NCBI GenBank assembly: GCA_037043015.1
Contig: CM073326.1
Span: 17,864,345 to 17,928,344, forward strand
Source of the DNA: Bryum argenteum
Taxonomy: Eukaryota; Streptophyta; Bryopsida; Bryales; Bryaceae
Direction: 5' to 3'
Length of the DNA stretch: 64,000 nucleotides
Below, piece by piece: positions 6,763 through 42,136 of this stretch (position 1 is its first letter; every line of letters begins with the position of its first letter). Made by a program: the position numbers and the translations under genes. The notes under the pieces were generated by a model. It was not told where the DNA came from, did no database searches, and worked only from the letters and a program-made list of their open reading frames with translations.

Positions 6763-6772
6763 CGATTACTTT

Positions 6773-15526: not shown

Positions 15527-15531
15527 CCTGG

Positions 15532-18500: not shown

Positions 18501-18804
18501 GGATCGGAATGAGAAGTATGATACGAGACTTCCCGGGGACCACGGAATCCGAGAAGGCGGCCTTGTGCTCCTGTACGACAGCCGCCATCAAAACTTCCCG
18601 GGTAAGCTACACACCCGCTGGATGGGCCCTTACCGGGTAGCCCAAGTGTTTCCCAACGGATCCCTCCAGTTGGAGGATTTACAGGGTAACCGCATGGATA
18701 CGCGTGTGAACGGGTCGAGGGTGAAACAGTACCACCCGGAGGAGTTAACGGATGAAGAGGTTCTGTCACAGGAGGACGAACCTCCACAGCACGAGTCCGA
18801 GTAA
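15532..18804 (+). CDS. pol: Reverse transcriptase-RNase H-integrase of element A, intact
   Basis: An uninterrupted frame of 1090 codons. The N-terminal 190 residues are a linker. RT follows (YRLNPKYSLMVKEEIDRLLE; catalytic FIDDF at 353-357). RNase H has the first acidic site in TLDASG (D501), then TTEREALAVVYA and HTDHDSLK (D568). Integrase has an HHCC zinc domain (H719 in HAGDCGGHL; CDQCQR) and the D-D-E core: D789 (GIDFVG), D850 (VSDRGAHF) and E886 (QTERSN), with 35 residues between the last two. The tail carries a LLYDSR...KLHTRWMGPY block and no chromodomain. Together these enzymes copy element RNA to DNA and insert it in the nucleus. Protease lies upstream across an insertion, so this enzyme block is intact but the element is not. 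Confidence 0.9.
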   Translation: MHSAHEGETHESDGYTTGWSDSEDSNTQASYLVSEFSGLVERDFEFPDSVTKDGRELVADEEVEDRAEMDDRSLGESCVALSEKWIRKQLTDPAGQPCRLNGEGVIPWGNLGITPEEAELERIKGVVSPKDFEEIEAKPGKKFFLGKTLTALEKGEYSTLLTGFADVFAWAPTDLRGIPSQLGEHQIDLVEGASPIRQRQYRLNPKYSLMVKEEIDRLLEAGFIYPVNNTEWVSPIVVVPKKTGADGKVKIRVCQDFRKLNAATKKDYFPLPFTDIILDHVAGQELYSFLDGFSGYNQVSIRESDQLKTTFTTEWGTYAFNRMPFGLCNAPGTFQRLMMDIFKDFLRHFLEVFIDDFAVFRKRENHLEHLKKTFQRCRETNLKLHPGKCFFGMETGLLLGHVVSRRGLQVDTDKVSAILTLVPPRTVKEVRGFLGCVGYYRRFIDGYARKAAPLTALLKKDEPFLWKPERQAAFEDLKQQLTRAPILAPPDWTREFHVTLDASGWCLGAILWQPDEQKRERPIYYASRQMSSAERNYTTTEREALAVVYACKKFRHYLLGYRVVFHTDHDSLKYLVNKPDLSGRIARWILLLQEFTYEVVVKPGRANANADYLSRMRGEPALEDISSLFPDEFPDSQDGPDVVVLQVGSEVLSEFQQIRDYLLTQRYPAGMNREEKSVFQHRVAPYTLINGVLFRMGADDRLRRCLEPGERRQVMEALHAGDCGGHLAAMSTVNRIKSAGYWWPFVIRDVRQYVQRCDQCQRTGQPGFRNHWPLTPIFPLAPFVKWGIDFVGRIAPITKNRKRYIILATDYATKWVEARATRGNDARTAASFLFEEIMMRFGHPLELVSDRGAHFINDVIEDITSKYAIRHRKTTPYNPKANGQTERSNGTIGKMLNKMVSAHKTDWDRKLASAVHAYNTAEKTTTGKTPYFMVFGQEAIHGVELAVETHRVMATRLGEEGDGKPERLQAIDALEEGRAEGMGRNRKVQEDRNEKYDTRLPGDHGIREGGLVLLYDSRHQNFPGKLHTRWMGPYRVAQVFPNGSLQLEDLQGNRMDTRVNGSRVKQYHPEELTDEEVLSQEDEPPQHESE

Positions 18805-18849
18805 CTGCGGTTACTGGGGGCTGAGTGTTCGCGAGGACGCTCACAGATG

Positions 18850-18858
18850 AAAAAGGGG
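18850..18858 (+). promoter_or_regulatory. Polypurine tract of element A
   Basis: AAAAAGGGG lies three bases before the TGTCAAACC start of the 3' LTR, 45 bases after the pol stop codon. This is the usual plus-strand primer position and fixes the LTR start at 18862. Confidence 0.75.
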
Positions 18859-19159
18859 TAATGTCAAACCTCATTTTTTCGTTTTTGCCCCAATTTGGTC
18901 CGGATAGTGCTTAGTAGTAGTTAAATAGGATAAATAACGCCCTGGTAACCGGCTATCCGGGTAATAACCGGGTAGGGTTAGCTTAGCCAGGGACCTGCCT
19001 GTCCGGGAGCATCCTAAAGCTTAGTGGGCAGGATAGGATAGCGGAATTTCTAACCCGCCTTTTTCTTCCTAACCTTTGCTTTTAAAAACTCGGGCACGGA
19101 CTCCCCATACCTAGCCCGACCACTGAGCGCCCGGGTAGGGTTTAGCCGACCGATCTCAA

Positions 19160-19400
19160 GTCTGTCCCAACCCGGGAAAGCATATGCTGACCCGGTTATG
19201 TGCCGATCGGGCATGTGCCTACCGGGCATGAGAGGCCCGGGTATGATCTGTCCGGGCATGATCCGGACAGTCATTGCCCGGCCAGCCATGGCCCGGCCCG
19301 GCTATGGCCCGACCGACTATGGACCGACCGGTCATAACCCGGCCGGTTATCAATGGCCGGAGAGGCCGCCGGGCGGAAGGAAGGGCCGGGCAGTAAAAAC
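19160..19400 (+). repeat. CCGG-dense leader block in the LTR of element A
   Basis: About 240 bases consist largely of short related units around CCGG or CCCGG, such as ACCGGGCAT, TCCGGGCAT, CCCGGCTAT, ACCGGTCAT and CCGGCCGGTTAT. It lies upstream of the LTR-internal reading frame. The whole of element A and the solo LTR are CCGG-rich, this block most of all. Confidence 0.6.
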
Positions 19401-19670
19401 ACTGGCGGCGCCGACAGCCCGGGCTGACAGGCCCGTGATTAAGGCCGCGCCGCCAAAAAGTACCGCCACCTCCCCCCACTCTCTTTTGTCGTTAATGGCA
19501 CGGGGAAGGCCGTTGTCCTTCCCTTTTTGATTTTCCCCCCCCCCCTCTCTTCTCTCTCTTCCTCGTTTTTCGTGCGCCATTGCCGGCCGTGCTGCTTCCC
19601 CGATTCTCGCACGAACCTGTACACGCGGCCGCCCTGCACACCATAGCCCGGAGAGGAGGAGTACGGAGAC

Positions 19671-22600
19671 ATGGCCGGGGAGAGAGCTTCGCGGGTGAGG
19701 AGCAAGATTATCCAGGCTGGCATTCCAATAGCGGTGGATGCCAGGGCGCAGTTGGTGCAGGACTTGACGCGGATGGGGTGTGTGGGATTGTACTGGGTGC
19801 CCTGGAATGTGGAGGATGCAGGGATTATCGAGGAGGCCGTGTCCGGACAGGATCCACCGACTTTCGCCGACAACCCTGTCCGGGCCAAGCCGCACTTTTG
19901 GCAGGAGGCGTGCTAGAGGGCGACGTATGGCTTTCCGGATTCCTCCACCGGGTACATCCAGGTGAGGAACGACCCCTCCCTCGGAGGAATGTTCCACAAT
20001 CCCGCGCATGAGCACGACGACTACCGGGTGGAGGATTGCGCAAATGCTCAGGAGCGGCGTCTGCTGAGGTTCCTGGCACCGATCCTCAACCCGGAGAAGC
20101 CCCAGTTTGTGTCAAACCGACTCCTGAAGGCAATCATGGAGTCCTACCTGGGACGGAAGTGCGTAGGATGGGGGCACATCCTCGAGGAGGTGGTCGTCCG
20201 GGCCTCGAAGAAGGCCACCAGTATGAAGGGCTGTCCCCTGGCACCGTACGTGTACCACCTGTACGCGCATTACGAGTGCCTCAATCCGGGTGAGATCACC
20301 CTCCTCAGGATGCTCATGGAGGGTAGACAGGACATGTTTCCCGGGGAGCAGATCCCCGAGGTGGGAGTCCCTGCTGCGGCCAAGTTGCTCCCCAGGATGC
20401 CCGCCCCCGGAGGAGGGGCACTCCCGCCTCCTCCACCTCCTGCACCACCCGGACCGCCGGGCCCAGGAGAGCAGAGGCCTCGAAGAACAGGAGATGAGGC
20501 ACCCCGGCCAGGAGATGGAGGAGCGCCAGGACCTGGTGCAGGAGGAGCAGCCATCCTCCGGCAGAGGGAAGTCGCTACGCAGCCCCGTCCGGAGGGAGCC
20601 ACCACACCCCGGCCAGCCACCAGCCACCGGATGGCGACCCGGAGTGGAGCTGCAGCCGGATCAAGCCACCAAAGCCCGATCCTACCCTGGTTGGAGGAGA
20701 GTTCCCCTGTAGCAATGGCGACCCCTCCTACTGCAGCAACCACTTCGACTTCTGTGATAGCCTCTCCACCACCCCTTAGGCCGGTGCAGGGGAATGACAG
20801 TGAGGGAGAGGAGGCTCCCGTCCTGCACCGGAGGAAGTCGGGAAGGGTCCTGAGGTTTGTGGAGAGCGAGTCGGCCTCCTTGCCCAGAGACCAGGGGGTG
20901 GGAGCTTCGGCCCCGCCAGGAGAGACCGAGGCCGGGGAAGCTCCACAGCAAGGAGATCCTACCCCGGAAGTGCAGACCCCTACCCGGGGAGTGGCGGTGG
21001 GGGACGTACCTACTGAGGTCCTCCTCCTGGCGGATAGCCCAGCAGAAGGTCCCGGACAGCCTACGGCCACGGGAGAGATAGAGTGGGGAGACCCGCAGTA
21101 CGCGAAGAAGAGGAAGGCGGACCTCCCCGCCGAGAGCCCTCGCCCGCGCGTCCGGAGAAAGCTCACGAAGTTTAGAGCGGACACTTCGCCAACTTCGGCC
21201 GCTTCTCCTGTTACCCGGGCCAATCCCCCTGAACCGGTGGTCCGAGCAATCCCAGCAGTTCAGCGGATTTCACCCCCCGGGGAGAGGGAGATCCGGAGGA
21301 AGGGAAAGAGGGTGCTGGAGGAGTCCTCTGAGTCAGAGGAGGAGGAGACCCCCGCGCCGCATTCGGCCGCCCACGCTACCCGGGTATGCATGAGGCGGCA
21401 CCCTCCAATGCTACCCGGTGCCGAGGATGGGAGGACTTCACCCCGCGGAGGACGGAGTTCGACCCACCCCTTCCTGTACCCCCATTCCGGATAACAGAAG
21501 AGCATCCGCTGCAGCCAATTGCGCACGCACTACAGGTATGCACGCAGGAACACTTGCAGATGCACAAGGCCCTGCGCGGTATATCCGTGGCTCTCCGAAC
21601 CGGCCAAGTAGAGAGGTTCCCCGACATGGTGCGGGAGTTAGTCCAGGAGAATGCGGCAGCCCGGGCAAGCAACAACGAGGGGTCCCTCATTATCTTACGG
21701 CAAGCCCGGGAAATCCAGCAGTTGGAGGAGGAGTTGTCCAAGCAACAGGGGTACGCTCGACAGCACCTTTTCGGGCTCAGGAGATTCCTGTATGCACCCG
21801 GAGAGGCACAGCTGAAGGCTCAGCTGCTCGATACCCAATTCCAGGCATCGGGATCGGACCTCCCAACCCGGATGGCGGCATACATGAAGAAGGCCGCAGA
21901 GAGGATGGAAGGAGCCCTCCAGGAGATGAGGACCCTCATCGGGGAAATGGCTAAGGCTTTTCCCGGCAAAGCACCCCCATCGGAGGTAGTGGAAAACCCT
22001 CCTACCCGGGTAGCATCTGAGACAGTGGAGGCTGCCCGGGTAGAGGAGGAGGAGTCTGCCGACCCCGTAGCTATGGAGGAGCCCATCCCTCCATCCGCCC
22101 TTGGCCGAGGAGAAGGCCCGGCCGGGCAAGCGTATTGCCACTCCTCCCCGAGGGTATCCCCGAAGTGACTAAGGAGGCCAGGATGGAAGAGGAAGAGCAC
22201 CCCGACCCTGTGGCAATGGAGGAGCCGGCCCTGCCCACAAACTTGAGCCCGGAGAAGACCCCTGGAGAGACCGGACCTTTGCATTCCCTCGGCAAGGACA
22301 TTCCGGAGAGTCTTTGAGGCGAGCCTTGAGGGCATACCCCCAGTCGAAGAAGAGGTTTCCCGGGTAGTCAAGGAGGGTGTTCCCCGGGCAGGGGAGGAGG
22401 TTTCCCGAACAGCAGAGGAGGATACCCGGGTAAGGAATCCCTCGCCCATCCCCCCGGACCGGACCGTGGACCCCGACAGCAGGAGTCCTAACCCTGCTAC
22501 GGAGGCCACGATCCAACCAGGACCGGAAGGGGAAACCGACACCCGGCAACCCGGACTGAGCATAGAGAGGCTGCAGGCACCCCCCTGCCCGGATCCAGTC

Positions 22601-22996
22601 GTCCCATCAGAGCCATCCGACCTCGGGGCCCTCCCCGAGAAGGCCCTGCCCGCGGAGATCATCCCCCTCATCCCCGAGGACTTGATCGAGGTCCCGGAGA
22701 TCGGGGAGGCACTCCCGGACACCTCAGCCCCGATGCCTTCCGGAGACACTGAGATCCTTGGGAGTGAAGATACCGCTCCAAAGGCTCGCGGAGACGGGGA
22801 ACGAGGAGGAGGAGGTCACTTCCCAACCCGGGTTGGGAGCGCAGAAGGTCGAGACCACCGAGACTGCCGAGGCTTCCGAGGCTGCGAAGTAGGATGGGCG
22901 GGACAGAAAGAACCAAGGCCGAGTCGATTGAGGGCGGGTGCGTTGGTCAAGATAGGGTTGGATTTCGGTGTGCCTTTATGGCAAAGAGGAGAATGA
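19671..22996 (+). pseudogene. Decayed LTR-internal coiled-coil protein gene in element A
   Basis: It starts at ATG 19671 (MAGERASRVRSKI) and is stopped by a TAG at 19914-19916, where the relative in the solo LTR reads DWRATY (TGG changed to TAG). It continues as a long open stretch 19962-21494, with frame changes near 21400-21490, 22140-22170 and 22320-22470. The N-terminal third carries LTRMGCVGLYWVPW and GWGHILEEVVVRASKK...CPLAPYVYHLY, resembling the plant Transposase_32 group. The middle is Pro/Gly/Glu-rich and low complexity. The part at 21500-21960 is helical (VRELVQENAAARAS, LEEELSKQQ). Not part of gag-pol. A role in RNA or DNA binding is possible but not shown. Confidence 0.6.
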
Positions 22997-24076
22997 CGGC
23001 GTTAGGACTGGCAAGGGCCGGATTTAGAAAGATTCCCTGACACAGGATTTTGTCCTCTCTGGGATGCCAGGGAGGATCTGCTACTTAGCCGAGGGGAGGA
23101 TACTCCCTCGGGGTCTTTTTGTGATTTTGCCATACCCTAATCCAGTGCAAGTACGCCTCTTTCTCACTTCCCTCGTGTGTGCTCGTGTGTGATTGCGTGT
23201 GTCGGATTGTGCATCTTTCTCGTTCTTCCTGTCTTGTCTGTAGGGTCGGGGTGTGTGCAGAGTTCAAAGGACCCTTGCTGTCCGGGCAAGAGGTAACGGT
23301 TCCGTCCTTGAACGGAGAGGAGTGAGGAGAGTAGAGAAGCTGGTAGGAGAGGAGTGCGGCCAACGAACGGCACCTCTCACTTAGGGCCCGGTTTAGCCTG
23401 TCCGTGCAGCATTCAGGATTACGGCGGCCAGGAAGGGATTCCGGCCGCCTAACCGACTCCCGAGGCCGCACTCGGTTGAGTCCCCCTGGATTGTTGAAGT
23501 CCGGATAGGAAGGTCGGTGTATAGGTGATAGCGGTGAACTCCGGGTCAGTCGCACCACCCCCAGTCCAGTAACCCGGAATCCACTAACCCGGGTAGTGAG
23601 TTGAGATAACCGGACCATAGGAGAACCGGATACCGAACTTTGTGACATGCGTGTGGATTTATAGTCCGGGCGTAGAGGGAGGTATAAGGGAAGTTCCTAA
23701 CAGGGTAAGGAGAGAGAGAGAGTCTCGGTGACCTTTCCGGTCACGTTAATCAAGGGGAGAAGTGGCCTAATTCCCCCCACTTATCTAAGTCCGGGAAAAC
23801 CCCTCTGAGGAGAATACAGAGGTTAAACTAAACCACAAAGACTAAACCCGCCCCTTTTCCTGTCCGGGCAGCTGTTTCCAGGACAGGATATAGGGTACAG
23901 GGGCGATAGGACAGTACCCGGATAGCACCAATCCGGGTTTGCTAACAAGTGGAAATTGTTGTTCTTGCACTTCACAGGATCTCCGTGGAACGAACACTCG
24001 GGTTCTTGTTTGGGAAACCTCTTTTACCGCGAAAAAGGGTTATCCGGGCACGAATCGGAAAAGCACGTTACGACAA

Positions 24077-24634
24077 TGTCAATTAGACAATTCTACATAC
24101 TCACACAAGCATTCCATCAAGTTGACAAGTATATTAATAATTCAATAACAATTAGAAATGCTTTACACAATTAAGTGTCGAATTCGCCAATTGAAGCCTC
24201 TTGCTTCAATTGCTCTTCTTTGTTGGATTCCGCTTCCGGCACAATTGAAGCCTCTTGCTTCAATGGCTCTTTGTTGGAGTCCGCTTCCGGCACTCGCCTT
24301 CTTATTACTCCCGGAGTAATAAGATTTACACTTACACTTTAAACAACTATGAACAATCTTAAAGCTTGAGATGTAAAGTATATTAATGAATTAAAATTGT
24401 TTTAAGTGGAATACACGGAGAGAAGGGTGTAGACAAGAATGTCTTGTCTTTCCACACCTTTTATCTCTCTTAAGACGAAAAGGTACATATGTAGACCTTT
24501 TGAGATCCACCTTTCTATTTCTAAAACCATTTTGTCCTATTATTTCCTATCTTGTCTATTTGTCTTATCTAATTATAAACCTTTTTACATTCTATTGGAC
24601 ATTTGAGCCTAATTAAAGCTCTTTTCTCATCACA
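24077..24634 (-). repeat. LTR-like segment with several perfect hairpins
   Basis: On the - strand it starts TGTGATGAG just after a purine-rich tract and ends TCTAATTGACA, so it has TG...CA ends. No second copy was found in the window. Hairpins: CAATTGAAGC/GCTTCAATTG (24189-24213, inside a 54-bp imperfect tandem pair to about 24297), CTTATTACTCC/GGAGTAATAAG (24301-24323), GACAAGA/TCTTGTC (near 24433) and AAAAGGT/ACCTTTT (near 24479). It is either a short LTR or the terminal part of a giant LTR of element C. Confidence 0.5.
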
Positions 24635-24671
24635 TAGCCCCCTTCTTTAAAGGCTTGGCACCTGCCAAGCC
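24635..24671 (-). promoter_or_regulatory. Polypurine-like tract with adjacent 9-bp hairpin
   Basis: The - strand reads AAAGAAGGGGGCTA directly before TGTGATGAG, preceded by a perfect hairpin GGCTTGGCA/TGCCAAGCC (24652-24671). The layout copies the tract at 32331-32368 (AAAGAGGGGGGCT with hairpin ATAACTTG/CAAGTTAT). It is a candidate plus-strand primer site. Confidence 0.5.
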
Positions 24672-27245
24672 CTGCTTGCCTCCTGGTACTTCTTGCACTT
24701 TTCATCTCTTAAGGAAGGCTATTTGTCCGCTAGAATTGTCCTTGTACACCCGTATGTCATTCACTTGATTTCTTTATTGATGTAACAAGTTGTCAACTTT
24801 AGTTTTGATTTTCGCATACACTTCTTTTTTATTTTTGGCTTCTTGATTCTTTTTGATTATAATCTTTTAAACGTCTTCCTAGATCCCCTTTTTGGATTCC
24901 GGTTTTTTGATCTTTCTCGTACCTCGAAATCTCCATGTAACATCCTGGTATTGTCCTTGAAATTTCTGGTTCATTTCCTCTTAAGAGGTATTTTTGTCAA
25001 CTTTACAACTTATTAGACTCAATGTTTGTTAATCATCCCTCATTATTGATACTTATTACTTGAAACTTTCTTATCCACTTGACTTTTCTCTCAATGATGT
25101 TCCCTCAACAACTCATTATTCTCTCGGGAATTTTTTCATGATTTTGCTCACTTTACTCAGAACTTTTCTTTCCTTTCTTTCATTATCATGTTTTGACCAT
25201 ATTCCTCACTTGAGACTCCTATTTATGACTTACTTTGCTCGTTATAAACTTTTCTATGTTTATCCTCTTAAGACTCTCTCATCTCCTCAAGTCTCTCTTT
25301 TTTCTTTCGAGTCTCTCATTTTCTCTCAAAGTGCTCTTTTCTTCTTAAAACGCGCTCACAATGCTCATTTTCTCTCGGAACGCTCATTTTCTCTTAGAAC
25401 GCTCATTTTCTCTTTTTGCCTTTATTTTCACTCATGTTCTCACATTTTTACTCATGTTCTCACGTTTTTACTCATGTTCTCACATTTTTACTCATTTTCT
25501 TTCAAAACTTATATGACATATACTCATATTTTAGATTGTGGGACAAGGATGCTAATTGTTCTTCTCTCAAACATTATTGTTGACAAATTTCTACTCACTC
25601 CATTATCATGTTCTCTCTTATTTTTCCCTCTCGGCATGCTAATAGTTTTGTTTTTGAGAATAAAACTTTGAATACTCAACGGATTCTTTCTTTAATTTGT
25701 TTCATTCACTCGGCAATTTGCTTCTATCAACTTTACATCTTGTCTTCTTCTTTTATTGATTTTTTTTTTTTTTTTTTAATTTTTTAAACTTAATTTTAAT
25801 TATGTTCAATTTATCATGTTTCTTTATGATTAATTTCTTCTTGTTTATCATGTTTTCCTTATTACCTTAGTGATGTTCTTTTATCATGTTTCTTACTTAT
25901 CATGTTTTCTTTATTACCTTAGTGATGTTCTTTTATCATGTTTCTTACTTATCATGTTTTCTTTATTACCTTAGTGATGTTCTTTTATCATGTTTCTTAC
26001 TTATCATGTTTTCTTTATTACTTTTGAATTTTTGATTGGACATAAGAAACTCAACTTAGGAATATTAAGAAAATCTATTAGACGTAGCCTTAAACTTCCG
26101 CTCTTGCTTAAGAATTGGTTGAGTCTATCTGACTTTAAAATGTTACATGACTTCCTTATCAAGCCTTTGGTCAGTCTAATTGACCTATTAAAAACTCTTT
26201 CTTTGAAGGTTTTAGATCTGCTGAGTGAAACTTTTACAATTGGAGTTTCCAAGTTTACTTGACTTTTCTTGAGAATTCTCCCTTTCTCTCTTCAGAATTC
26301 AACTAAGTATTTGAACATTTAAGACTTAACTGAATCCTTGAATTATTTTGTACAAGTTGTTGGAACCATTTTTCTCTGTCTACTTAACTGATTTACAACT
26401 CTTTATTATGCCTCCGGAACTGAGCAATCTTTCCTCCTGTTTCTCTTAGTCAATTGGACTCAATTGTACTCACACTCTCTGGTTTACAGTCTACTTGACC
26501 CGTCTATTTTCATACTTGCTTCTTACTCAAGCTTCCTATCTACTCGACACATTCTCAGCTTACTTTCTATCTCCTAAACCACTTAACACAGTCTAATGGA
26601 CTTCGGTAAAACTTAAACTCTCCATCTTATTGGCTTAGAGTTTATTACTCCTTGTGGTATTCATTCATACTTGACATTCCCTGTCTGGTTGACTTTTTGT
26701 TGTTTATACTCTCTGTCAAATTGACTCCGAGTTCTTTACTCTTCTGATTCCTAAGACAGACTCTTTCTGAACCTGTGTTACTTAGTCTAATTGACCTTGA
26801 TGAAATTTCATTTTCCATTCTCTAACTCAACTCAAAGTCCATAATTCCTTGCAAAGTAAACACAAGACGAATATGAACAAGGCAATGCATTGAGAGAGAA
26901 TGTGCTGATCCTGTCTATTTGACCTCAACCTACACTCCAACACAAGAAAAAATGTGTAATACAAAGATTTCAGAAAGCTTTTCTCATGGATGGAATTGCA
27001 TTAAAATTGAAAAGAGAAACAAGTGTTTTTGGTAAAAGGTACTTATGCATTTGAGTGTTTGACACGGTGTCTACTCGACACGACTTATATGCTGAGAAAG
27101 AGAGTATACTGAAAAGTGAAAGTGAATATAACAAGGCAATGTGATGAGGGAGAATGTTCAATAACTGTCTACTCGACCTCACACTGAATGCCTACGACAG
27201 ACTATGTACAACCGGAACATTACTGACGTCAAATTGACCCATACT
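24672..27245. other. A/T- and C/T-rich non-coding segment downstream of the coiled-coil reading frame
   Basis: No plausible coding exon is seen; the longer open frames are low-complexity Ser/Leu/Phe runs from TCTC-rich DNA. Contents: CTCATTTTCTC-type simple repeats (25360-25500, including three ACTCATGTTCTCAC copies), a 52-bp tandem repeat (25815-26030), and GTCNANTNGAC motifs from 26174 onward. Confidence 0.55.
25815..26030. repeat. 52-bp tandem repeat, about 3-4 copies
   Basis: The landmark CCTTAGTGATGTTC recurs at 25865, 25917 and 25969, a 52-bp spacing, with TTATCATGTTT-type filler. The last partial copy runs into 26030. It is A/T-rich and has no coding content. Confidence 0.7.
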
Positions 27246-30200
27246 TCATCGTGCAAGCCAATTTCGGTACCTATCCTTGTTAAGCAGCTCCCTCCTGTAC
27301 TCCTCTGCCTCCAGACGGTCGACTGCCTTGCGCACATCATTGTCCAGCAACAACTTCGTGTCGTTCTTGCGTTGCGCCGATAGCCATTTGTCAATTGCAA
27401 TTTTCCTCGTTCCATTGAACTCATTGATGAAGCAGCCGTGAGCACCGTGAAGGAAATGCGTACTCGCCATCACTTCTATCATTCGGTTCCACCTGGTGCA
27501 TCGATACTGCAACTTCAGGGAGAGCTGAAATTCCGGCTTAAGCTCTTCGAACCTGTTCACATCGATCTGCACAACATACTTAGAAAATTACAAAACACAG
27601 CTGCTCGAAAACACACAGGATCGGTGTGTCCCTTGTGCTGCTCAAAAAACTTCTTGTACGCATCCGCACACGCCTCTGGCTTGTCAAATTGACCTGGTAT
27701 CACTGGCTAGTTGTATTCGATGGAGTCAATGGTGGCCTCCCTTGGCCATTTGTTCCTCCTCGCGTTCATCACGCAGAAGTGTGCGTTGGTAGAAACTGCT
27801 GGTGGAGGATCTATAGTCCAATCGACCAGGGCTCCAAATCGCCCCATTTCTTTGTATACCAAGTCCCAGGCGCGCTTTTCTACTCTCGAGAGCCCATAAT
27901 CCTCCAGCAACCATTCAATGGCCTTCCAGGATGGCACTGGTTGCTCAGATGGATTGTCAAATAGACTCTCGTAATTTCCAAGGTAGCGCTTCTTCAACTC
28001 AGAGCCTGTCACCATGGATCGTAGACTCACCCACTTCGGTGGCCTGAATGTTGCTGGCAGTGTTGTCAATTTAACCTGGCTCGGCAGGGGTGCTATGTCC
28101 AATCGACCCTCTCCGAGTCCCTTTAGCAACGCCTGAATCTCACTATAAATGGTGGCCATAGCATACACATATGTCCCAGCCGAAAATTCTCCACGCAGTG
28201 CTACCGCTTCTCGTTCCAGTACCAGAGCTATTTTCCTCTGGATCTCTACTCGATCGTTGAGTTGACTCTTCATCATACAGAGTATGGCCTGCCATCCCTC
28301 AAAACCTCCCATGCCATGGATCTGTGTGAGCCTTTGCAGCTCATCTGTGCTATCTCCAACTCGCACCAATCGGACCTCCTCAGGTGTCTTGTCAAGTCGA
28401 CGCTTAACTTGTTGCTGCTCCTCGAGTGCTAAGTAATATGCCAGCACTCTTGCTCCCAAGTGCCCAATTGGTATAAGGAACTGCCTCGGCTCCGTCAGCT
28501 CCAAGTCTTGTCTTGCCAGCATCTCACACAACAAATTCTGTTGGTTCGAAAATCGACTTGCCCTATTCCAGATTCGGAGGAAAGCCTCTCCGTCTATTTG
28601 ACTTCGGATCTGCAGATTGTACATAGACAAGAGGATTGAACGTTGGAGCTCGTAAGCTCGGAACAGAGAGAAGCTCGGTGGTGCTCTAGCTTCTTGCTCC
28701 CACATTGCCGTGACGAGCTGGTCCAATCGACTCATTAGAATAGTCACCTCGGCACTTAGGTGGTTATTCTCCTCCCTTAGCTTGTCCGCTTCTGCCTTCC
28801 ATGTCTCCACCTCCTCGTTCGCCTGTGTTGCTCTATCCGCCATGGTGGAAATATCATGTGGCAGGGTGGTTTGAGTCGACTCGACCACATAATTGAGCTG
28901 TTTCTTTAAACTGATACATTCTTGTTTCGAGCAAGCTAAATCCCGGGCCAAGATGACGTTATCATCCTCCTTCTCCTTCAGCTGGACCTGTAAAAGGTCA
29001 ACAACTGGTCCACTTGACGGCCCTGACTCATCAGTCATGGTGGACTGCTCCCTTCTTGTTCCATTGTCGACTTGACCTTGTTTCTCGGCCGTTTCTGCGG
29101 CTGCTTGGATGAGTTGATCATTCAATGATGTCAATTCGACCTTCTCCACCAGAGCCTGGTCAAGTTCCGCTTTTCTCCTGGCTTCATTTCCTTTCCATAC
29201 ATTGACATCGCCCTCCAATTTCTTGATTTGTAGCTTCATCTGGATCTCTCTTCCCAATACTTCTTGGAGCTCTTGCATCACCCTTCCTTCTTTGGCTCTG
29301 GCCTGCTTCAGCTCGCATACAAGTTGTTGCTTGGTCAAATTGTCCGGAATCTGAAGTTGAACTGGTGCGGCAGACAGGGATAAGGCTAATGCATTGGCGA
29401 ATCCTCGAGCAGTTTGCGGTTCTCTCCTTACTTCCTCGGAAACGTCCTCTTCCTGCTCTTCTGCATCTCGCACCCGCTTTCCTCGTCTAATAGACTCGGT
29501 CTGACTCAGAGGTGTAACAGTTGTTGGTGCGGCCACTTGACTTCGTCTAATTGACCCAGATGGAGCGCTTGTCGTTGCGGTGGTGCTCGCTGGTACTGGT
29601 ATTGCTGGGTCTACTCGACCGCTCCTCCTTCCAGTGTCGATCTGCCTCACAGTTGGAATCGGACTCATGCATAGTTGGCACACCTCCGAGATATATACTC
29701 CACTGAACAGGATCAAAGGATTTCTCATCCGCTTCCGATTCAACTCGACCCTTGTCTGGTTCCAGATGATGCGACCCCAGTTCAGCTCCTTGCCTTCCCA
29801 CGCCATGATGGCCGCTGACAAACCATGCTCTTCAATCACCTCTACTCCGTTCAGCGCCATGAGAATCTTCTGGTTCATGTAGTGGAGCCACTCCTTCCAG
29901 AAACCTTTTGCTTTTGAGATCACATAATTCGCACCACCTTTCGGATTCTTCCCGAAAATTTCAGCTACCTTCTTGTTAGTCAACTTGTTGACTCCTCCCA
30001 ATGTGAGTCCTGTCCCTTGCAGCCCGAGCTTCAAAGAACTACCACGGTGTGAACCGAACATTTTTCCTCGCACCGTGACTTCTTTCAAGCTCCATAGTAC
30101 GAATTTTTGATGAATTCGCTCACACGGTGCGGATCCATCTCGGAAGTGTCTCATGAAGAAAGTTCCATAGCCCTGCATCGATCAGATTCTCCTTGTTCGA

Positions 30201-30272
30201 TTCGATGTAGACCCAGCCTTCTGGTGAGAAGGAGAAGGTCGGTGCCTTCTCAATTTTTAATACAGGTGCCAT
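27246..30272 (-). pseudogene. Coiled-coil protein gene of element C (plant transposon ORF-like), nearly intact
   Basis: The best start is the ATG at 30272 (MAPVLKIEKAPTFSFSPEGW); that frame stops at 30120, and an overlapping frame then runs 823 codons from 30178 to 27707, so one or more frameshifts lie near 30120-30150. After the TAG at 27707 the same frame continues about 30 codons to a GT donor-like site, with an acceptor (ttgtgcag) before a further open stretch ending at 27246. Features: EVTVRGKMF, then LNWGRIIWNQTRVELNRKR...LILFSGVYISEVCQLC, which fits the Transposase_32-type block. Next come a basic RRGKRVRDAEEQEED stretch, a long coiled coil (LVCELKQARAKEGRVMQELQ...; about residues 290-500) and a Trp-rich C-terminal part. 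Nuclear or RNA-protein function is possible but not shown. At least 14 GTCNANTNGAC sites lie within it. Confidence 0.6.
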
Positions 30273-32330
30273 GCTGCCCTGTCCTCCCGCTTCTCCTGTT
30301 TGTAGTCAATTAGACACAGGAGCAAACATTTTGTTAGGTGGTTTGTCTACTTGACAAGTGCTCATCCTTATCCGTGTCAATTTGACCTCCTTAATTCGAT
30401 TTTATATCTTCTGTCAATTTGACACGATTTTTAGCATCTTTATCCATTTCGATTGTCTATTAGATTCGTTTTCGAACATTCCTCATTCAACAGTATGTGA
30501 ATTAGACTCGTACAATACACACATTGCTTGTCAACTGGACTTCAGCCTAATTGGATCATGTCGTTCGACATCCTTCACATGGTCAATTGGTCTTTTACAA
30601 CAGCTCATTCATTCAAACTTTCATTGTCAATTAGACTTTGAGATTGGTGTGTTCTTTCCTTACTTACCTGTGGTATTATTTTCCTGTTTTACAGCTACTC
30701 TCGACATTGTGAAAATTCAGAAGTGTTACTTGAAAATTTGAAAGAAAAACAATTGCCAATCCATTGCACAAAAGTTAGTTAGGCATGTATATTACTCAAT
30801 TACTCAGGTCAAATGGACTCCTCCTTGTCAATTCCACGTTCATGCATTTTATTTGTCAATTTGACACTCATCAGCATACAACGGCCTCGGTTCTTTGATT
30901 TCTTTTGTCCATTTGACCTCTTATTTTACAATAATCAACACAGCATGTAGACCTTTTCTGTCCATTTGACACCAATTCATGATCTCCCATGCATTATCCT
31001 CTAATTAGGTCCATTTGACAGTTTCTTCTTACTTACACCTTCGACCTTCCTATTACAGCACAGTCTATTTGACGTTCACACCTAACACAATTTTTACACC
31101 GTATGACACACTGTTTATTTGACCTAATTCCTTCGCTCTTCGTTCTTTACCATTTCATTCACAGTCTACTCAACTTCCAAAACTTTGCTTCTCGCATCAA
31201 GACATCAGCTTTCTTTCTGGAAAACTTACCTTCTATGTCACGCCACTCACATGCAGCAAGCAAACCTTGTTCTCCTCGCCTTGGTCGACTTGACTCCCTG
31301 GTCCAGTCGACTCGACCTCCTGTTCGTTTTGCGAGTACTCCCACTCAGCGGCAGCGCGTGTCCACTTGACACTTAGCAGGCCGCGCGAGTCAACACAAAC
31401 AACAACACGAAACACACAAAGGAGCAAAAACACGAAGGAGTGGAAGGAGCGGAAGACTCAAACTGAATGCACAGTGAGGGCGGGAGACTCAAGAAGGAGG
31501 TGGTTTTAACAAGGTCATGAAATCATGATCGTTTGGTGGCGGCGCATGACGCCGTAACTGCCAGTCTATTCGACCCCACTAACCCCAGTTAGTCAATTTG
31601 ACCGGCCACCAGTATACTTATCATGATTACTTTGTTGATTTAACCATTTGTATTGTTATTATTATTTTTAATCATTTGTGTTAAGTCTATTTGACAATAT
31701 CCTTTTGTTTAATGATTAAGTCTTTGTAGACAAAATCTAGAGTTTTTATTTTCTAACTTACTTTGTTAGTCAAAGTTTAGTATTCTAATATTTTAGAATG
31801 TTTGAAATATTCACAAAATTTAGATAATTAAGACTTAAAAGTAGTGGGTATCCCTAATCCTTTTCTTAGTTAGGACTATTTGGTGTCTAAAATTGGAAGA
31901 TCTTTCTTGTTTTTTACATTTCCTTGGTTTATTACTTATTTATTGCCCACTCTCTTTGTAAGTCTAAATTCTAATATTTGTCCTTATAAGAGATTATGCT
32001 ACTTCTTCTAGTTAATCCCATAATTACATCTATTTTCCTTGGGGTTAAAACTTTCTTTATACTATAAAGTTCATCATGGCTTGACTTCTATTTACTTCAA
32101 ATCACTTCAGAAACACTTTATAATTACTTTTATAAAGAAGGTTCTAACATAATGATTCCACTTGCTCTAACTTTTCTTGCTATCCGATTGACTTTGCTAT
32201 AATTAATGCATCATTGATTACTTTACTTATACGTCTATTTGACTAAAATTTAAAGAGTTTAATTTAAGATATTTTAATGTTTGGGGTTAAGTAACTTAGA
32301 TTTTTCATAATTTTAAATTTGTTATTTATT
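30273..32330. other. Motif-rich non-coding segment between coiled-coil gene and pol of element C
   Basis: No convincing exon is seen. On the - strand this is upstream of the coiled-coil gene, so it should contain its promoter and leader. From 30305 to 31602 it has the densest GTCNANTNGAC sites (18, some 30-50 bp apart, two overlapping at 31301/31306); two more lie at 31685 and 32233. The part 31610-32330 is A/T-rich. Confidence 0.55.
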
Positions 32331-32368
32331 AGCCCCCCTCTTTAAAATATAACTTGTCCTCAAGTTAT
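32331..32368 (-). promoter_or_regulatory. Polypurine tract of element C with adjacent hairpin
   Basis: The - strand reads ATAACTTGAGGACAAGTTAT (a perfect 8-bp-arm hairpin) and then TTTAAAGAGGGGGGCT. A TTGAGGACAA sequence before the polypurine tract is common in plant Ty3 elements. The bases after it (AATAAATAAC) do not start with TG, so the LTR start is mutated or shifted. Confidence 0.6.
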
Positions 32369-32550
32369 GTATAGTTTTAGACGATGACCATTATAACGCG
32401 TTTGATGAACGTTTCCCGCAAAGTCCTGAATTTCATCTGAACCATTTGGATAGCTTTTTAAGACTCTATATGGGCCAAACCATCTCATTTTAAATTTTCC
32501 CGGAAATTTTTGGAATCTACTATCATAAAGTAAAACCAAATCATTTTCTT

Positions 32551-33612
32551 TTAATTCCTTTGTCCCAAGTTTACTATCATAGTAGATTTTCTATGTTTTT
32601 GTATGGCTAGCATATTTAAATATGCTTGAGCCCTTGATTCATCCAATTTTTCTAACATTATATATCTTTGCTTTAAAGAATCCTGGTCTCCTAGTCTTTC
32701 TTCTATGGCAATTCTTAAGGACGGCAATTCTAATTCAATAGGGAGTATGGCTTCTTGACCATAAACCAAATTGAACGGTGTGTCCTTAAGAGTAACTTTA
32801 TAGGCAGTCCTATAAGCCCAAAGTGCGTCTAATACACGACTATCCCAGTCCGTAGTTGACCCTTGTACAGTTTTTGTAATAATCTTACACTAAATGCCGT
32901 TAGTTTTCTCGGTTTGTCCATTAGATTGGGGGTGATAAGGTGTAGATGGTCTATGTTTTATAAGATATTTTGTAGTCAACTCTTCTATAGTTTTATTCAT
33001 GAAATGTGTACCTCTATCACTCACCAATTCCTTTGGACAACCAAAGCGAGTTATTATATTTTCATACAAGAATTTGGCTACGGTTTCTGCATCATCCTTT
33101 TTAGTGGGGATGGCCTCTGCCCATTTTGTGACATATTCCGTAGCTACAAGAATATATCGTTTTTGGCCATAACGGCTAGGGGGTTTAATTGGGCCTACAA
33201 AGTCTATACCCCACTTCTCAAAAGGTACTTGGGCTAGAATTGGGTTTAAGGGCATGGCTTTCGTTGGTGTCGGTTTGCCTACTCTTTGACACGCATCACA
33301 TTTTCGAGCATGAATTGCGGCATCTGAGAACAAGGTGGGCCACCAATACCCGGCCCTTAAGACTTTTTGTGCGGTTACCATTCCTGCGAAATGGCCCCCA
33401 CAAGCGTCATCATGACACGCTTTTAAGACTAATGGTACTTCACTAGGATTCACACATCTTCTTAAGATTCCGTCTTTGCCTTGCTTATACAGAACCTTAG
33501 CAATTATTGTATAAGGTTGAGCTTTATAAGCTAAGTTTTGCTTCTGCTTTTTGTTATAGTCTAAAGGAAAAGTGTTAGTGGTCAAATAATGAATAACATC
33601 GGCATATTCCAA
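32551..33612 (-). pseudogene. Integrase of element C, with stop codons
   Basis: An open frame on the - strand from 33612 to 32890 contains the HHCC zinc domain (HDDACGGHFAGM; CDACQRVGK), GIDFVGPIKPP, TKWAEAIPT, VSDRGTHFMN and QTEKTNG, giving the D-D-E catalytic set. It ends at a TAG at 32890-32892; the C-terminal part (MVYGQEAILPIELE) is found again at 32769-32551. It would insert element DNA into the chromosome. Close relative of the element A integrase, but this copy is broken. Confidence 0.75.
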
Positions 33613-34188
33613 TGGAATAATGTCAACGTTAAAAATGTGCGCATCGGGAAAGCTATCATCTATAGGCTCGGATTTACTTCTTTACTTATTCTAGACAAAA
33701 ATCCGCATTACCATGTTGTCTTCCGGTCTAACATTAATTGTAAAATCAAATTCTTGTAATAGCAATACCCAAACGTGCTATTCTCCCACTAAGTTGAGGT
33801 TTATTAATCATATACTTAAGAGCATCATGATCAACATAAAAATTAAATTTATATCCCAATAAATAATGTCTATACTTTTGAACCGAGTAAATCATCCCTA
33901 AACCTCTCGTTCGCTCACCATGAGAATAATTCCTTTCACCGCACTCAATTGCACCGCTAGCAAAATAAATTGGTCTATCACGACCCTTATCATCTTTTGG
34001 CTTAGCACACTACCAATGGCTACATTTGAGGCATCCACATAGACTTCAAATATTTTATTCCAATCGGGGGGGAATTAGTACGGGAAATTTGTAGTAAGCC
34101 TTTTCTTAAGTTTATTAAAGGCCTTAGTGCACTCCTCCGTCCGGACTCCGGCATTTTGTTTGTTTGGTTAAATGAGTCAACGGGTGTG
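33613..34188 (-). pseudogene. RNase H remnant of element C
   Basis: No long open frame, but pieces on the - strand still read as RNase H in changing frames: EVYVDASNVAIG (first acidic site), RPIYFASGAIE, RNYSHGER and FYVDHDALKYMINKPQLSGRIAR. Several frameshifts and stops separate them. Confidence 0.6.
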
Positions 34189-36811
34189 CTATTTGAGCAA
34201 AGAAATAAATATGGCGGCGGTAGTAGCCCGTACCTCCCAAAAATGACTTAACATCGGTAATATTTTTGGAATTTCAATTGCTAATATTGCCTTAACCTTA
34301 TCCGGGTCTCTGACAATACCGTCTTTAGACACTATATGTCCTACAAGACGTCCATAAGGTACTATAAATTCGGATTTAGCCGCGTTTATAGAAATGCCAT
34401 ATTCTTGGCATTGCTCAAAACATTTTCTTAAACACTCCCCATGTTCTTCCTTTGTGCTAAAAACACAAAAATCATCTAGAAATATTTCAATAAATTTTCG
34501 CATATATTTTTGAAATGCTATAGTCATAACCCGTTGGAATGTAGCAGGGGCATTGCACAAACCAAATGGCATGACGTTATAGGCAAATGTGCCCCAATCA
34601 GTTGTAAAAGTTGTTAAAGGTCTATCTTCTGGGGCAATTTGAACCTGATTATACCCAGAAAATCCATCTAGAAAAGAGTAACATTCATGCCCAGCTACTG
34701 CATCTAATATTGCATCTGTAAAAGGTAAGGGAAAATAATCTTTCCGAGTTACACTGTTTAACTTTCTAAAATCCTGACATATCCTTAATTTCCCATTCTT
34801 TTTTGGTACAACAACGATGGGAGAAACCCATTCGCTATATGGTACAGAATATATAAACCCACATTCTAATAATTTGTCAATTTCTTCCTTGACTAGTAAT
34901 GAATATTTGGGGTTCATCCTGTATTGTCTTTGGCGTACAGGTTTAGTGTCAGGTTCTAGGATTATGCGGTGTTGACAAACATGTGCAGGGATCCCTTTCA
35001 AGTCCGTATATGTCCATGCAAATGCAGTTTGATACTTTTTGAAAAATTTAAACCATTGATCCCTTTCTTTTGGGCTTAAGTTTTCATAAATCCTTATGGT
35101 TTTTGAATTTTCGGGTGTTCCAAGTTCCATGTCAATACAAATACTTTTGGGTGATTTTAAATTTTTTAACACACTATGAGACATATTGTCTAATAATTCC
35201 TCTGAATCGGTTAAGTAAGGGGGTTCCTCCTCAGATTCCTCCTCCACCTTAACCGTATAAACCGGAGAATTCTGCCATGCTAATATAGCTGCATCTGAAT
35301 CCTCCCCGTTTAAAGGGTTGTAATATTCTCCCGGTTTTAAGGTTTTAACTATGGTTTCCTCTTTACCCACTTGATTTGTGGTTTTATCTTCTTCTATGCT
35401 ACCCGTAGAGTACTCAGAGTTTTCCTCTTGAGTTTCCCCGTGGTATTTGGCTGGGTACATAGGTATTGTAATTTTGTCTTTTCCCCTGCCTAAGGTTATT
35501 GTGCCTTTACCCCAATCATCCCTAGCTTTTGCTAAATACAACCAAGGTCGGCCCAAAAGTACCGGATAGGCGGCGATAGGTTCACTAATTTTAAAGACTA
35601 TATAGTCAATTCTATAGTTCAACCCTCCTATCATTGTAAGAATTTGTTTAAGCACTCCCAAGGGTTTAACCCTTCGTTGGTCGGCCATTCTTAAAATTAT
35701 AGGAGTGGTAGTCATGGTTTGTAAGCCTAACTCCTCCATAGTATCTAGATTCATTAAATTTACACTAGACCCACCGTCAATTTGAGCATTTTCAATCAAA
35801 GTCCCATCTATAAAAATATCTATGGTTGGTGCACCAGGATCTATAGAAATATCATGTACCTCGACTATTTTTGGACGTTTCTTAACCAACGAGGAGCTAA
35901 GTTCGCTCCTACATTGGGGGGAAACGGCCAATAATTGCCTTAAGGATATTTGAGGTTGAATACTATCCATATTTGTAAGGATGTTATAAGGGTTCATTCC
36001 TACCATAAGATTCATGATTCTATTATGTTTTCTCTTTTTTGTGGTAGGGAGAATTTCTCTTATAGTTTTCTTAATTATTTTCCTAGGTGGTTTGTAGAAT
36101 GATGGTTGTGTTAAGGGAGCCATTTGCTCTTGATTTAACACTTTCAATGGATCTTCCTTAGGCAAATTTTCATTTATATTAGACTGGTCTAAATTGACAT
36201 TTCGAGGTGTTTCTATAATAGGTGGTACATGTGTATTGTTAAGTTCGTCTACGGTTTTGGGTGTAGTATTTGGTACCAAGGGTTCATTAATGATTTGATT
36301 GCCTTTTAATTTCGTCCATTCTTTAGGGGTAGATAATTGTCTCTTAACTGGTTTTCTATAATCGGTGTCTGAGCTACTTTCTTGATTGGATTCAAGATTA
36401 ATTCCTCTCTCCCGTGCTTTGGACCTAGTGACTACTTGACAATCCTTATCATCAAAGAAATTGGTTGTCCTTAAAACACAATTGACCTCTTGAATTTTTT
36501 CAGGGTTTGAGAATTGCACTTGTTTAACCGGTTCCGGTGCTCGACAATCCTCAGCCAAATGGCCAGGTTTCTTACATTGTCTACAAAACAAATCGTATCC
36601 TGTTTCTTTCTTAGGTGCAGGACAATCTCTTGCAAAATGTCCTAGTTGCCCGCAATTGTAACACTCCAAAGTTCTACCTCTATTGTTCATCCCTGGCTTC
36701 CTAGGGTTAATGTTGGATGTTGGTCCATTCCAACTGGTAGAGGCGTTATTCCACCTTGTCCCACCGTCTCCCGGTTTATAAGGGAGTCCGTTGTTAGGAC
36801 GGGTGAACGGA
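34189..36811 (-). pseudogene. gag C-terminus, protease and RT of element C
   Basis: One long frame on the - strand enters from unit 2 at 36811 and runs to 34189. It holds two zinc knuckles ([14 protein letters not shown] and [14 protein letters not shown]), a linker, protease ([31 protein letters not shown]) and RT ([25 protein letters not shown] at the catalytic site; [12 protein letters not shown]). The frame is lost near 34250, just after RT. The capsid half of gag and the primer site are absent because the sequence switches to the terminus of mobile unit 2. The continuous frame across the junction into 37125 is accidental. Confidence 0.75.
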
Positions 36812-36880
36812 GGGGAAACCACCGGTGTGAGCGTTGAGCGGTGAGCGGTGAGCGGTGAGCGGTAAAGTTTGAGCGGTAAG
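36812..36880 (-). repeat. Terminal heptamer repeats and 3' terminus of unit 2
   Basis: On the - strand: ACCGCTC at about 36872-36878, then four tandem ACCGCTC units, AACGCTC, CACCGGTG and GGTTTCCCC, ending at 36812. Same order and spacing as 6176-6241; beyond it the two loci have no similarity (CCACCCCC at unit 1, TCCGTTCA at unit 2). Confidence 0.6.
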
Positions 36881-37791
36881 GAAAAAAAAAATTTAAAGTT
36901 AATGGCCCTATTACCATGGAATGGGTGGTTTAGAATTTTTGAAATGGTCCTTTTTAGGCATAAAAGTACCCAATACCGTGGACATAGGTCATACAATATT
37001 TCATAAATATTCCACATTTGTAAGTTTAAATAAAAGTTAATTAAATTATGGGCTAGCATCATCATGTGTAACCAACACAATTCAAATCGTATCCATAATA
37101 TAAACCGAAATTTGGGATGATCCATTTAGGTAATCAATAAGTTCAATTTATCGACAGTAAGCTTTAGAGGCTAATTAGGGCTGACGTCATCATTTACCTA
37201 TTACACATGTTAGAAATTTATGTAAATGCTTCGGCATATATTATCTGAAAATTATCACTACACGTCGTCTTTCCGTGTCCCCTTGTAAGGTGTACGAAAA
37301 GACATTCACGTGGCATTGCAGTGGTCCGAGTTCGATTCTCCTGGGCCTCGTTTGAGCGTTGCACTGCGTCTTAAATCAGCTATCCTGAGCTATACATATA
37401 CTGCACTATAGCCCCTACCAACATTGGCAAAATTCAATAACACCAATGGAAATAAAAAAAGACCTTCTCAAACTTTTAGTGTGCATTTAGTTTAGAACTT
37501 AAGCATTTACATACACCGGTGCATCGAACTTGGAGTTTAAGAAGTTACATCAAAATTAGGGCTGCCGTCTTTATTACAGGCAAGCATGACTTTAGATTAC
37601 ATTGTAGTGAGAGACTTAGAGTAATACTTGAAACACTTCGTGTAGCTTAAGCTATAAACGATAATCACAATGAATAGATATATAAAACCATATATATTGA
37701 AAAACACAAATACATGCTAAAGCAGTAATAGATCGAGGTAAACGAATACTCTAGTACCATGTCCAGTACCTATCTGATAACAAATCACAGT
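36881..37791. other. 3' flank of the unit-2 gene, non-coding
   Basis: Partly conserved with 5455-6175 in reverse orientation, including the B-box-like GTTCGATTC at 37330-37338 (+ strand) and the AGCCCCTACCAACATTGGC block near 37410. No coding exon seen. Confidence 0.5.
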
Positions 37792-40700: not shown

Positions 40701-42136
40701 AAAGACTTTCCCGAGTTTGATATTGGCCACAGCGACCATTTTGTCAAAATTCTTGCCACGTATTAATTTGATTTCAGCCTTGATTGCGTTGTCCATGGCA
40801 CTCCAAACTCCCGGTCCAGTTTGCTTATCCTTTGGAACTGTGGCGTAGTACGTCGCTTTAGCATCGTCGGATTTCTTGGCTAACCTCCTCTATATAACAA
40901 CAAGAACACAAATGAGAAGTTGTTTTAGATAAATTTGAAGAAAAGGAGTCGAGCACATATATAGGGAACGTACCGCATATAGGAATTTTACAAAAACGTC
41001 TATAGTGACAGGATACCAAGTCTCCTTTTTTGCTTTGGCATTTTTACAGATTCTGTAATCTTCGGGAGAAATGAGGTCCTTGAAATCTTCGAGTTTCAAT
41101 TTACCAAACTTCCTCATGCGTTGCAGTTTCGCACACAAACTGTCCTCGACGTGATCATGTTCAGTGGACCTAAAACAGAGAATGAAAGATTTTAAAAATT
41201 GTGTATGATAAAATCATAAAGGAAACAAGTTTTACAGAATTCGACATTCACTTACCAATTAATGTCGTTCATAGCATCGAGGAGGAGATTGCTCTCTCCA
41301 CGGGCATCGAGTACGATGCAATCAACCGAAATGTACCACGAGGGATCATTCTTGTGGTATCTCTCAATATGGCGCATCCACGCAGTAACACGATGGTTAC
41401 CTTCGTAGACATAGAAATATTTGCCACAAAGGTTATGAAGATTTGCATCGGCTCGCAGCGTACTTTCGAACTCTTCATTCGCGGCTGCCCAAAGCGGGTT
41501 CGTCCAAAGTACCTCTTGGGGGTCAACAATTTTTTCTCGGCCTTTTCTATCAAAGGGAGACACGTACATTACCCGATCACCTTCGCGGTATCCCTTGTTG
41601 AACTCATTCTCCAGTTTTCGGACATCTTGTTCAGAGATCGGTCGGACCTTCGGATAACAAACGAGGCGACAAAGTGGAATAAGCATGCGTGATTTTTTAA
41701 CAGGTTTGAAGCGTAACCTGTTGATGATTGCAATGGAATCACTCTTGTGGAGCATTCGCATCTCGTTAGCACTCCATTCGGGATCCTTGTTTTCAAGATG
41801 TGCAGGCATGTGAATAATGCCAACGTTGACACCTTCAGGCAATGTAGATTCTTCATCATCCGAGAGGGATTGGTGTCCATCATGGTCCTCTGTTGGTAGA
41901 TCAATATCTGCAGCTACGAGAAGATTGTCACTTGACACCGCATTGCATTCGCCCTCCACAAGTTGGCGACCAATTGTCGAAGGACTAACTTCAGGAAATC
42001 CAGTTTCCAAGTCTTCAACATTTCTCACACTATCAAGTATGACTTCATCTTCGTCGGAAGATACAATTTGTGGAGGATTAAGAAGAGGCGGGTTGGCTTC
42101 ATCATCTTGAATGAGATGATCTTGAGCTATATTCAT
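37792..42136 (-). pseudogene. ParB-like / methyltransferase-like gene, second copy, one frameshift
   Basis: Exons on the - strand: 42136-41256, 41169-40974, 40889-40692, 40603-40385, 40302-40067, 39980-39186, 39090-38743, 38651-38381, 38304-38113, 38018-37792. Exons 2-5, 7 and 8 have exactly the same lengths as in unit 1 (196, 198, 219, 236, 348, 271 nt), and all junctions are GT-AG. The spliced length is one base short of a whole number of codons: in exon 6 the frame ends at a TAG near 39542 and resumes in another frame just below it, within the variable linker. The ParB-like block (VRPISEQDVRKLE, EGNHRVTAW) and methyltransferase-like block (IDLIFADAPE, FDWSASTG, IAMEPD) are well kept. Either a young pseudogene or a one-base sequence error. 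Confidence 0.75.

Follow-up and report, generated by a model that had tools for sequence, protein, structure and literature searches.

The window analysed here, a 64-kb stretch of Bryum argenteum DNA, raises the question of why one short palindrome, GTCNANTNGAC, is written tens of times across a single retroelement, and which protein might recognise it. We found 46 exact GTCNANTNGAC matches in the window, 45 of them at 24078–32243 and one stray at 48746, and 100 dinucleotide-preserving shuffles of the window gave a mean of 0.90 and a maximum of 4, which rules out chance or composition as the source of the array. The 45 sites comprise 1 at 24078, 11 at 26174–27693, 13 inside an 823-codon open reading frame (ORF) and 20 at 30305–32243. 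Between 26.1 and 31.75 kb, 43 exact matches and 16 one-mismatch variants stand against 0.1 and 2.4, respectively, expected from first-order Markov sequences. Spacing in this dense part ranges from 5 to 696 bp, with neither a 10–11 bp (helical) nor a 3-bp phase, and the sites inside the ORF use all three frames (7, 3 and 3). The earlier note on this DNA had claimed 45 exact palindromes with fewer than one expected, many one-off variants, irregular spacing and copies in all three frames of the 823-codon ORF; the counts agree with each of these claims, and the shuffle check that it proposed came out in its favour (0.9 per 64 kb).

The sites are carried by a Ty3-type LTR element whose extra ORF, integrase ORF and reverse-transcriptase ORF all lie on the minus strand. 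Pfam places RVT_1 in 34189–37125 and then rve in 32890–33681, the order reverse transcriptase to integrase. The gag-pol ORF (34189..37125, minus strand) contains CCHC knuckles, a protease-like part and reverse transcriptase (RVT_1, E 4.6e-27; zf-CCHC, 1.8e-12), with homology to a copy on contig C9 only up to 36811, and the integrase ORF (32890..33681, minus strand) contains rve and H2C2 zinc-binding domains (E 7e-16 and 6e-11). The element's pol matches are mostly unnamed. Continuous homology to the C9 copy delimits the element at 24076..36811 (minus strand), truncated at both ends relative to that copy, with identities of 90.4% over 24076–26224, 97.5% over 26225–31589 and 98.2% over 31590–36811; because the C9 copy matches the window without a break, pol and the extra ORF are parts of one element. 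The C9 copy has LTRs of 1600 bp that are 98.4% identical (C9:15698099–15699698 and 15714540–15716139), and GGCAGCGGCGCCAAAA, which adjoins its 5′ LTR, is read as a putative primer-binding site. Positions 24076..24640 of the window (minus strand, end approximate) are the remaining piece of the 3′ LTR and correspond to the inner part of the left LTR of the C9 copy; another element, whose LTRs are 521 bp long (6242–6762 and 23555–24075, 99.4% identical), cuts the window copy off at 24076. The spacer from integrase to extra ORF (30179..32889) holds the 20 sites of the upper group. The C9 copy carries 7 GTCNANTNGAC sites per LTR and 48 in its 3′ third (15701139 to 15707220, comprising the 3′ region, extra ORF and spacer), and none in its gag-pol and leader (7.3 kb, from 15707220 to the 5′ LTR). 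The earlier description, a Ty3 element that also encodes a coiled-coil protein, is borne out by the LTRs, RVT_1, rve and an extra ORF downstream of pol. Its coordinates hold for the span of the array but not for the extent of the element, which reaches beyond; the LTRs hold sites too, and the window keeps a truncated LTR piece.

The extra ORF lies between pol and the 3′ LTR, on the same strand as pol, and encodes about 1000 amino acids. The longest open frames in four other copies of the same clade (clade A, without stops in the match) and in one clade-B copy are 939–1059 codons (L017, L018, L022, L023 and L039), the first part of the L018 and L022 frames being without alignment. Since these frames are about 940–1060 codons long, the 823-codon frame (27707..30178, minus strand) is a degraded copy; it leaves the L017 frame near its start and stops early. 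The reading frame described earlier therefore exists, but not as an intact gene. Downstream of its stop, 27240..27706 (minus strand, start approximate) holds what is left of a C-terminal coding stretch that other copies keep open, as indicated by the L017 frame, which runs on here, and by tblastn pieces of L016, which is the window copy itself. The N-terminal region of the protein shows weak to moderate similarity to PF20167 in L052 (E 6e-11; 43 bits, cut-off 45), L039 (2.5e-4) and L017 (3.5e-4), and PF20167 is absent from the list for the other 8 of the 11 extra-ORF proteins, several of which are without the N-terminal part. The middle is, by our reading, a probable coiled coil. The C-terminal domain is distinct, with 39 of the 40 invariant columns of a nine-protein alignment falling at residues 811–1018 of L017. 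Pfam scans of the 11 proteins at cut-offs of E 1, 5 and 0.5 recognised no DNA-binding domain and listed no DUF1985. Searches of a large protein collection with the extra ORF or the nine-protein alignment gave no homologue at E ≤ 0.001 among roughly 8000 best candidates each time, solved structures gave one weak match only (E 0.13), and structure predictions of single window fragments were unusable (pLDDT 33.3 and 32.4).

Within its own genome (258.8 Mb covered, 25 contigs) the extra ORF gave 67 matches, and a clade-B relative used as the query gave 61. We examined 30 loci from the 67-match search and 9 further stretches. When the best 60 of 145 integrase places were considered, an integrase lay within 9 kb of 27 of the 37 extra-ORF places, always upstream on the same strand (clade A 10/14, B 3/3, C 5/7, D 3/5 and E 6/8, nine of the D and E places being assigned by identity to the clade-B query and not by tree). 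At one clade-A locus, L018 (C1:2908001–2938000), the extra ORF and array are present, with no pol by tblastn within 30 kb and no integrase among those listed, so that the extra ORF and its array may be able to exist apart from pol.

A tree built from the C-terminal half of the extra ORF at 23 loci, drawn in part from fragments of broken copies in which stops were written as X, sets clade A apart (support 0.993) and resolves clades B, C, D and E (0.999–1.000). The array was present in 21 of the 31 loci tabulated, after eight loci were left out as repeats of the same copies (L024, L026, L031–L035 and L043). All 14 clade-A loci carry GTCNANTNGAC (11–44 sites each; reversed control 0–1), all 3 clade-B loci carry CRANTYG (43–54 each; control 2–5), both clade-D loci also carry CRANTYG (54 and 37; control 2 and 2), and both clade-E loci carry GACTATAGTC (7 and 4 exact sites, or 16 and 10 when one mismatch is allowed; control 0). 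Outside its own clade each motif stays near background, with three exceptions: L039 of clade B has 2 GTCNANTNGAC matches, L057 has 1 GACTATAGTC match, and A loci have 7–22 CRANTYG matches (control 1–8), since the core CNANTNG is part of the A motif. Thus motif type follows the extra-ORF clade, with three motif types in four arrayed clades, as would be expected if the sites are recognised by a protein of the element itself.

An array in every clade was not borne out. Searches for dyads and gapped words, and an exhaustive scan for palindromes, found none at the seven clade-C loci, though the extra ORF is present; CTCNANT half-sites, tried as a candidate, numbered 28 in L037 (reversed 17) and were weaker in the near-identical L040 (19 against 13). 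Three loci picked blind downstream of more distant integrases (L055, L056 and L057) likewise gave 0/3: L055 and L057 had no array, and the ACTN6AGT matches of L056 were mostly near-copies in a repeat. L057 (C10:12223000–12226500), which shows no clear palindrome array, has an open frame whose C-terminal domain looks the same by eye, a domain seen in neither L055 nor L056. In the exhaustive palindrome scan the top-ranked palindrome was GTCNANTNGAC in L023 and GNCTATAGNC in L053; the scan returned only CAANTTG-containing fragments in L048, and found nothing in L052 or in four single clade-C loci.

The palindromes appear related by eye. Clade A has the half-site GTCNA, clades B and D have CRA, and clade E has GACTA. 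The two halves are separated by 1 bp except in E, where the spacer is 0; the core C-N-A is common, and the outer bases and spacer differ. B and D share CRANTYG at about 30% protein identity, while A and B differ in motif at about 42%, so protein distance alone does not predict the motif. One reading of this pattern is that a CRANTYG-like ancestor would have been followed by changes in A and in E.

Genome-wide, GTCNANTNGAC occurs 3572 times, about twice as often as the pattern read backwards (1848), and close relatives of the array element hold 6–44 sites per 3.3–5.5 kb locus. A GTCGAC-rich repeat seems to supply part of this excess; small groups of GTCGAC-containing matches with similar spacing, probably a repeat, occur on C1 (e.g., 230807–231599 and 2534711–2535502). 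GACTATAGTC occurs 360 times against 138 reversed. Its clusters were located from the pattern alone, and the five densest among the places listed are all on C1. Three of these five have an integrase or extra-ORF match of the lineage next to them: 15430017–15433004 (integrase at 15434646), 32373454–32373960 (integrase at 32375563) and 19620941–19624788 (extra ORF at 19620638). The clusters at 29807839–29810779 and 32352881–32353418 had no integrase or extra ORF among the matches listed.

Could the array be a by-product without function, left by the expansion of repeats, by biased mutation or by codon usage? Tandem repeats do give high palindrome counts elsewhere. When 25 control chunks of 3.3–4 kb outside the arrays were scanned for any enriched 3+3 palindrome, three scored like the array family (12.2–18.5), all of them tandem repeats, and the other 22 scored 8.7 or less; arrayed loci scored 12–36 and clade-C loci 3.9–6.5, the arrayed L052 scoring just 6.2, on another dyad, and standing out only by CRANTYG. 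One of the 22 lower-scoring control chunks, 49001–53000 of the window, scored on GACNNNNGTC: it had 8 matches to GACNNNNGTC, the outer frame of the clade-E palindrome, against 0.7 expected. The array element itself contains a 52-bp-period repeat at 25838–26024. However, self-BLAST of 18–46 kb with a low-complexity filter found only this repeat and one 59-bp pair (78%), so the GTCNANTNGAC sites are not repeat copies; their flanks are unrelated to one another, and a tandem-repeat origin is thereby ruled out. A codon or amino-acid origin is ruled out by the three-frame placement together with the comparisons between copies that follow.

A copy on C1 that is 67.7% identical to the window across 3161 aligned columns retains 15 of the 17 window sites in place. 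Across the 18 sites of either copy, the fixed bases were identical at 139/144 positions, the N bases at 36/54 and the rest of the alignment at 1965/2963. Where both copies encode the same residue, the third codon positions were identical in 31/32 cases at fixed bases, 5/9 at N bases and 220/424 outside (fixed vs outside, Fisher p 9e-8), and fourfold sites in 12/13 cases at fixed bases compared with 77/170 (Fisher p 1e-3). Coding-site upkeep extends to further copies. In coding DNA at 53–70% identity, 62–92% of sites were kept in most pairs, against 2–17% of control 8-of-11 windows, and 6 of 7 diverged copies kept their coding sites far above the controls: 12/14 aligned window sites in L018 (controls 191/2779), 11/14 in L019 (466/2825), 8/13 in L022 (154/2764), 8/12 in L023 (59/2604), 8/12 in L025 (64/2617) and 9/11 in L030 (41/2501), with 2/12 (74/2678) in L029, a decayed copy with several stops. 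L017 (14/14 kept, 98% identity) is uninformative on upkeep. An alignment of nine copies showed two sites, 27816 and 28592, in 9/9. The 15 of 17 sites kept, the fixed-base comparison and the coding-site upkeep contradict an origin as a by-product, and the fixed versus N bases and the synonymous third positions show selection on the motif as DNA; we consider the by-product reading extremely improbable.

Outside coding DNA, upkeep was partial. The 3′ non-coding sites were kept at 7/9 in L018, 7/9 in L019, 5/9 in L022, 4/8 in L030, 1/5 in L023, 0/6 in L025 and 0/3 in L029. In the upstream part the numbers were 13/15 in L019, 0/9 in L018, 0/8 in L022, 1/14 in L023, 1/10 in L025, 2/13 in L029 and 0/3 in L030; identity to the window there is 34–39%, except in L019 (66%) and L029 (50%), so most of these alignments mean little. 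Upkeep inside the other clades was weaker. In clade B, 25/42 sites of L039 were kept in L038 (fixed bases 78% vs 66% background) and 25/54 in the reverse direction (69% vs 66%), 14/27 from L039 to L048 (77% vs 61%) and 14/41 from L048 to L039 (62% vs 62%); L038 and L048 are too alike for this comparison. Clade D kept 31/37 and 31/35 (fixed bases 94–95% vs 88% background). In clade E, only 1/5 and 1/3 exact sites were kept, no better than background, and both copies hold the same motif; either the positions may have turned over or the alignment may be poor. The sites are therefore kept as DNA clearly in clade A and weakly in B and D. This upholds the earlier claim that the pattern is kept as DNA, and the comparison with other copies that the note suggested gave kept positions in coding DNA, partial turnover elsewhere and counts that stay high.

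What protein, then, would read these sites? Their two-fold symmetry points to a dimeric DNA-binding protein, and since the clade-specific sites lie in elements that encode clade-specific coiled-coil proteins, the extra-ORF protein is the candidate binder. We propose that this protein of about 1000 amino acids, most likely a dimer, would bind the 11-bp palindrome across the element's own LTRs and own gene, coding DNA included, and that dozens of sites would load it onto the element's own copies. By analogy with VANC on VANDAL, the loaded protein might block or remove host silencing marks, so that the copies would stay transcribable. Related clades have diverged in their palindromes, and since these share the C-N-A core and differ in outer bases and spacer, specificity would have evolved via half-site readout and spacing. 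We give this combination of self-binding and VANC-like anti-silencing an even chance; its anti-silencing part is argued by analogy. Counted against it are clade C, with an extra ORF and no array, and the array-free loci beside more distant integrases; the motif that B and D have in common despite their dissimilar proteins; the weak site upkeep in B and its absence in E, and the loss of most sites in poorly aligning non-coding parts; the lack of a recognised DNA-binding domain; and L018 without pol.

The same sequence evidence for self-binding fits equally well with another job for the extra-ORF protein on the arrays, such as activating LTR transcription, directing new insertions towards existing copies or keeping them away, or compaction or tethering of the element's DNA. 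Activation or integration control would leave the same pattern, and the sites do cluster in the LTRs and around one gene; however, sites across coding DNA would seem to exceed what a promoter needs. We judge such a role possible but doubtful. Still less probable, in our view, is that a host DNA-binding protein (e.g., a transcription factor) recognises the sites and that the element gathered them as enhancers. TNGAC is the commonest GTCNANTNGAC half-site; in two copies taken together, 43 of 75 sites have T at N, and TTGAC resembles the WRKY W-box, a pointer to a host factor. Yet the palindrome has a fixed spacing and tolerates any base at N, sites are kept inside coding DNA, and three different motifs occur among the clades of one element lineage in one genome, all of which speak against a host factor.

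VANDALs are DNA transposons. In the passages cited, VANC of Arabidopsis VANDAL recognises a 9-base non-palindromic motif, YAGTATTAY, that is mainly non-coding and lies in tandem repeats (PMC5735166); VANC proteins carry DUF1985 and DUF287, many short motifs occur on one family and are rare in related families, which have different motifs, and the binder is proven to be an element-encoded extra protein (PMC5735166; PMC10398659). As far as these passages go, the likeness lies in the many short motifs on one family, the different motifs in related clades and the extra element protein (here the putative binder). The differences are that the carrier here is an LTR retrotransposon and that the sites are palindromes, also occur in coding DNA (13 in the ORF), are not tandem and come with a protein that has no DUF1985 match. 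The earlier parallel with VANDAL/VANC thus holds for the different motifs in related clades but not for the form and placement of the sites or for DUF1985. Because the DNA-transposon context, DUF1985 and the tandem non-coding placement are all missing here, the array element is not a VANDAL/VANC member, although by analogy it may work like VANC. The maize Spm/En protein TnpA binds subterminal repeats of its own DNA transposon, at sites that are confined to the subterminal regions and used in transposition. It resembles the present case as an element-encoded protein with repeated short motifs in its own element, tied to methylation and expression (the binder here being a candidate), and differs in belonging to a DNA transposon with subterminal sites only, rather than an LTR element.

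The position of the extra ORF between pol and the 3′ LTR and its partial, sub-threshold PF20167 similarity recall the Athila-type 3′ extra ORFs with similarity to Transposase_32 (PF20167), such as ORF(+) of sunflower Athila 14; that protein has 487 amino acids and the cited passages mention no motif array, whereas the present one has about 1000 amino acids, a long putative coiled coil and a separate conserved C-terminal domain (PMC11728184). The same source describes the extra ORFs of plant LTR retrotransposons as having unknown functions (PMC11728184). If the proteins bind the clade-specific palindromes of their own element, the extra ORF would gain a testable job, self-recognition would extend beyond DNA transposons to retrotransposons, and there would be a natural series of proteins and matching sites for learning how DNA specificity changes. 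Our search of open-licence papers found no retrotransposon system of this kind, and what is new here is that motif type follows the extra-ORF clade. Whether this amounts to a self-recognition code in LTR retrotransposons, in which an orphan protein family downstream of pol would recognise in each clade a different palindrome written tens of times in its own DNA, coding sequence included, we regard as evenly balanced. Sites kept as DNA within coding sequence are an unusual double constraint that is directly measurable.

The element with 521-bp LTRs (6242–24075) is G+C-rich and has its own pol, with an integrase 46% identical to that of the array element. Two inverted segments, 713–6241 and 36812–42565, about 70–83% identical, flank the nested elements, and the homology of the array element to the C9 copy ends exactly at 36811. 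Each segment has one ORF (1070–1966 and 41252–42328), the two proteins being 59% identical; the one at 41252–42328 was scanned and had no credible Pfam match. Further along the window, 42740–64000 is a tandem array of about 360–370 bp units with long spurious open frames, and just left of the window (L014:5535–9887) lie about 23 copies of a 192-bp tandem unit.
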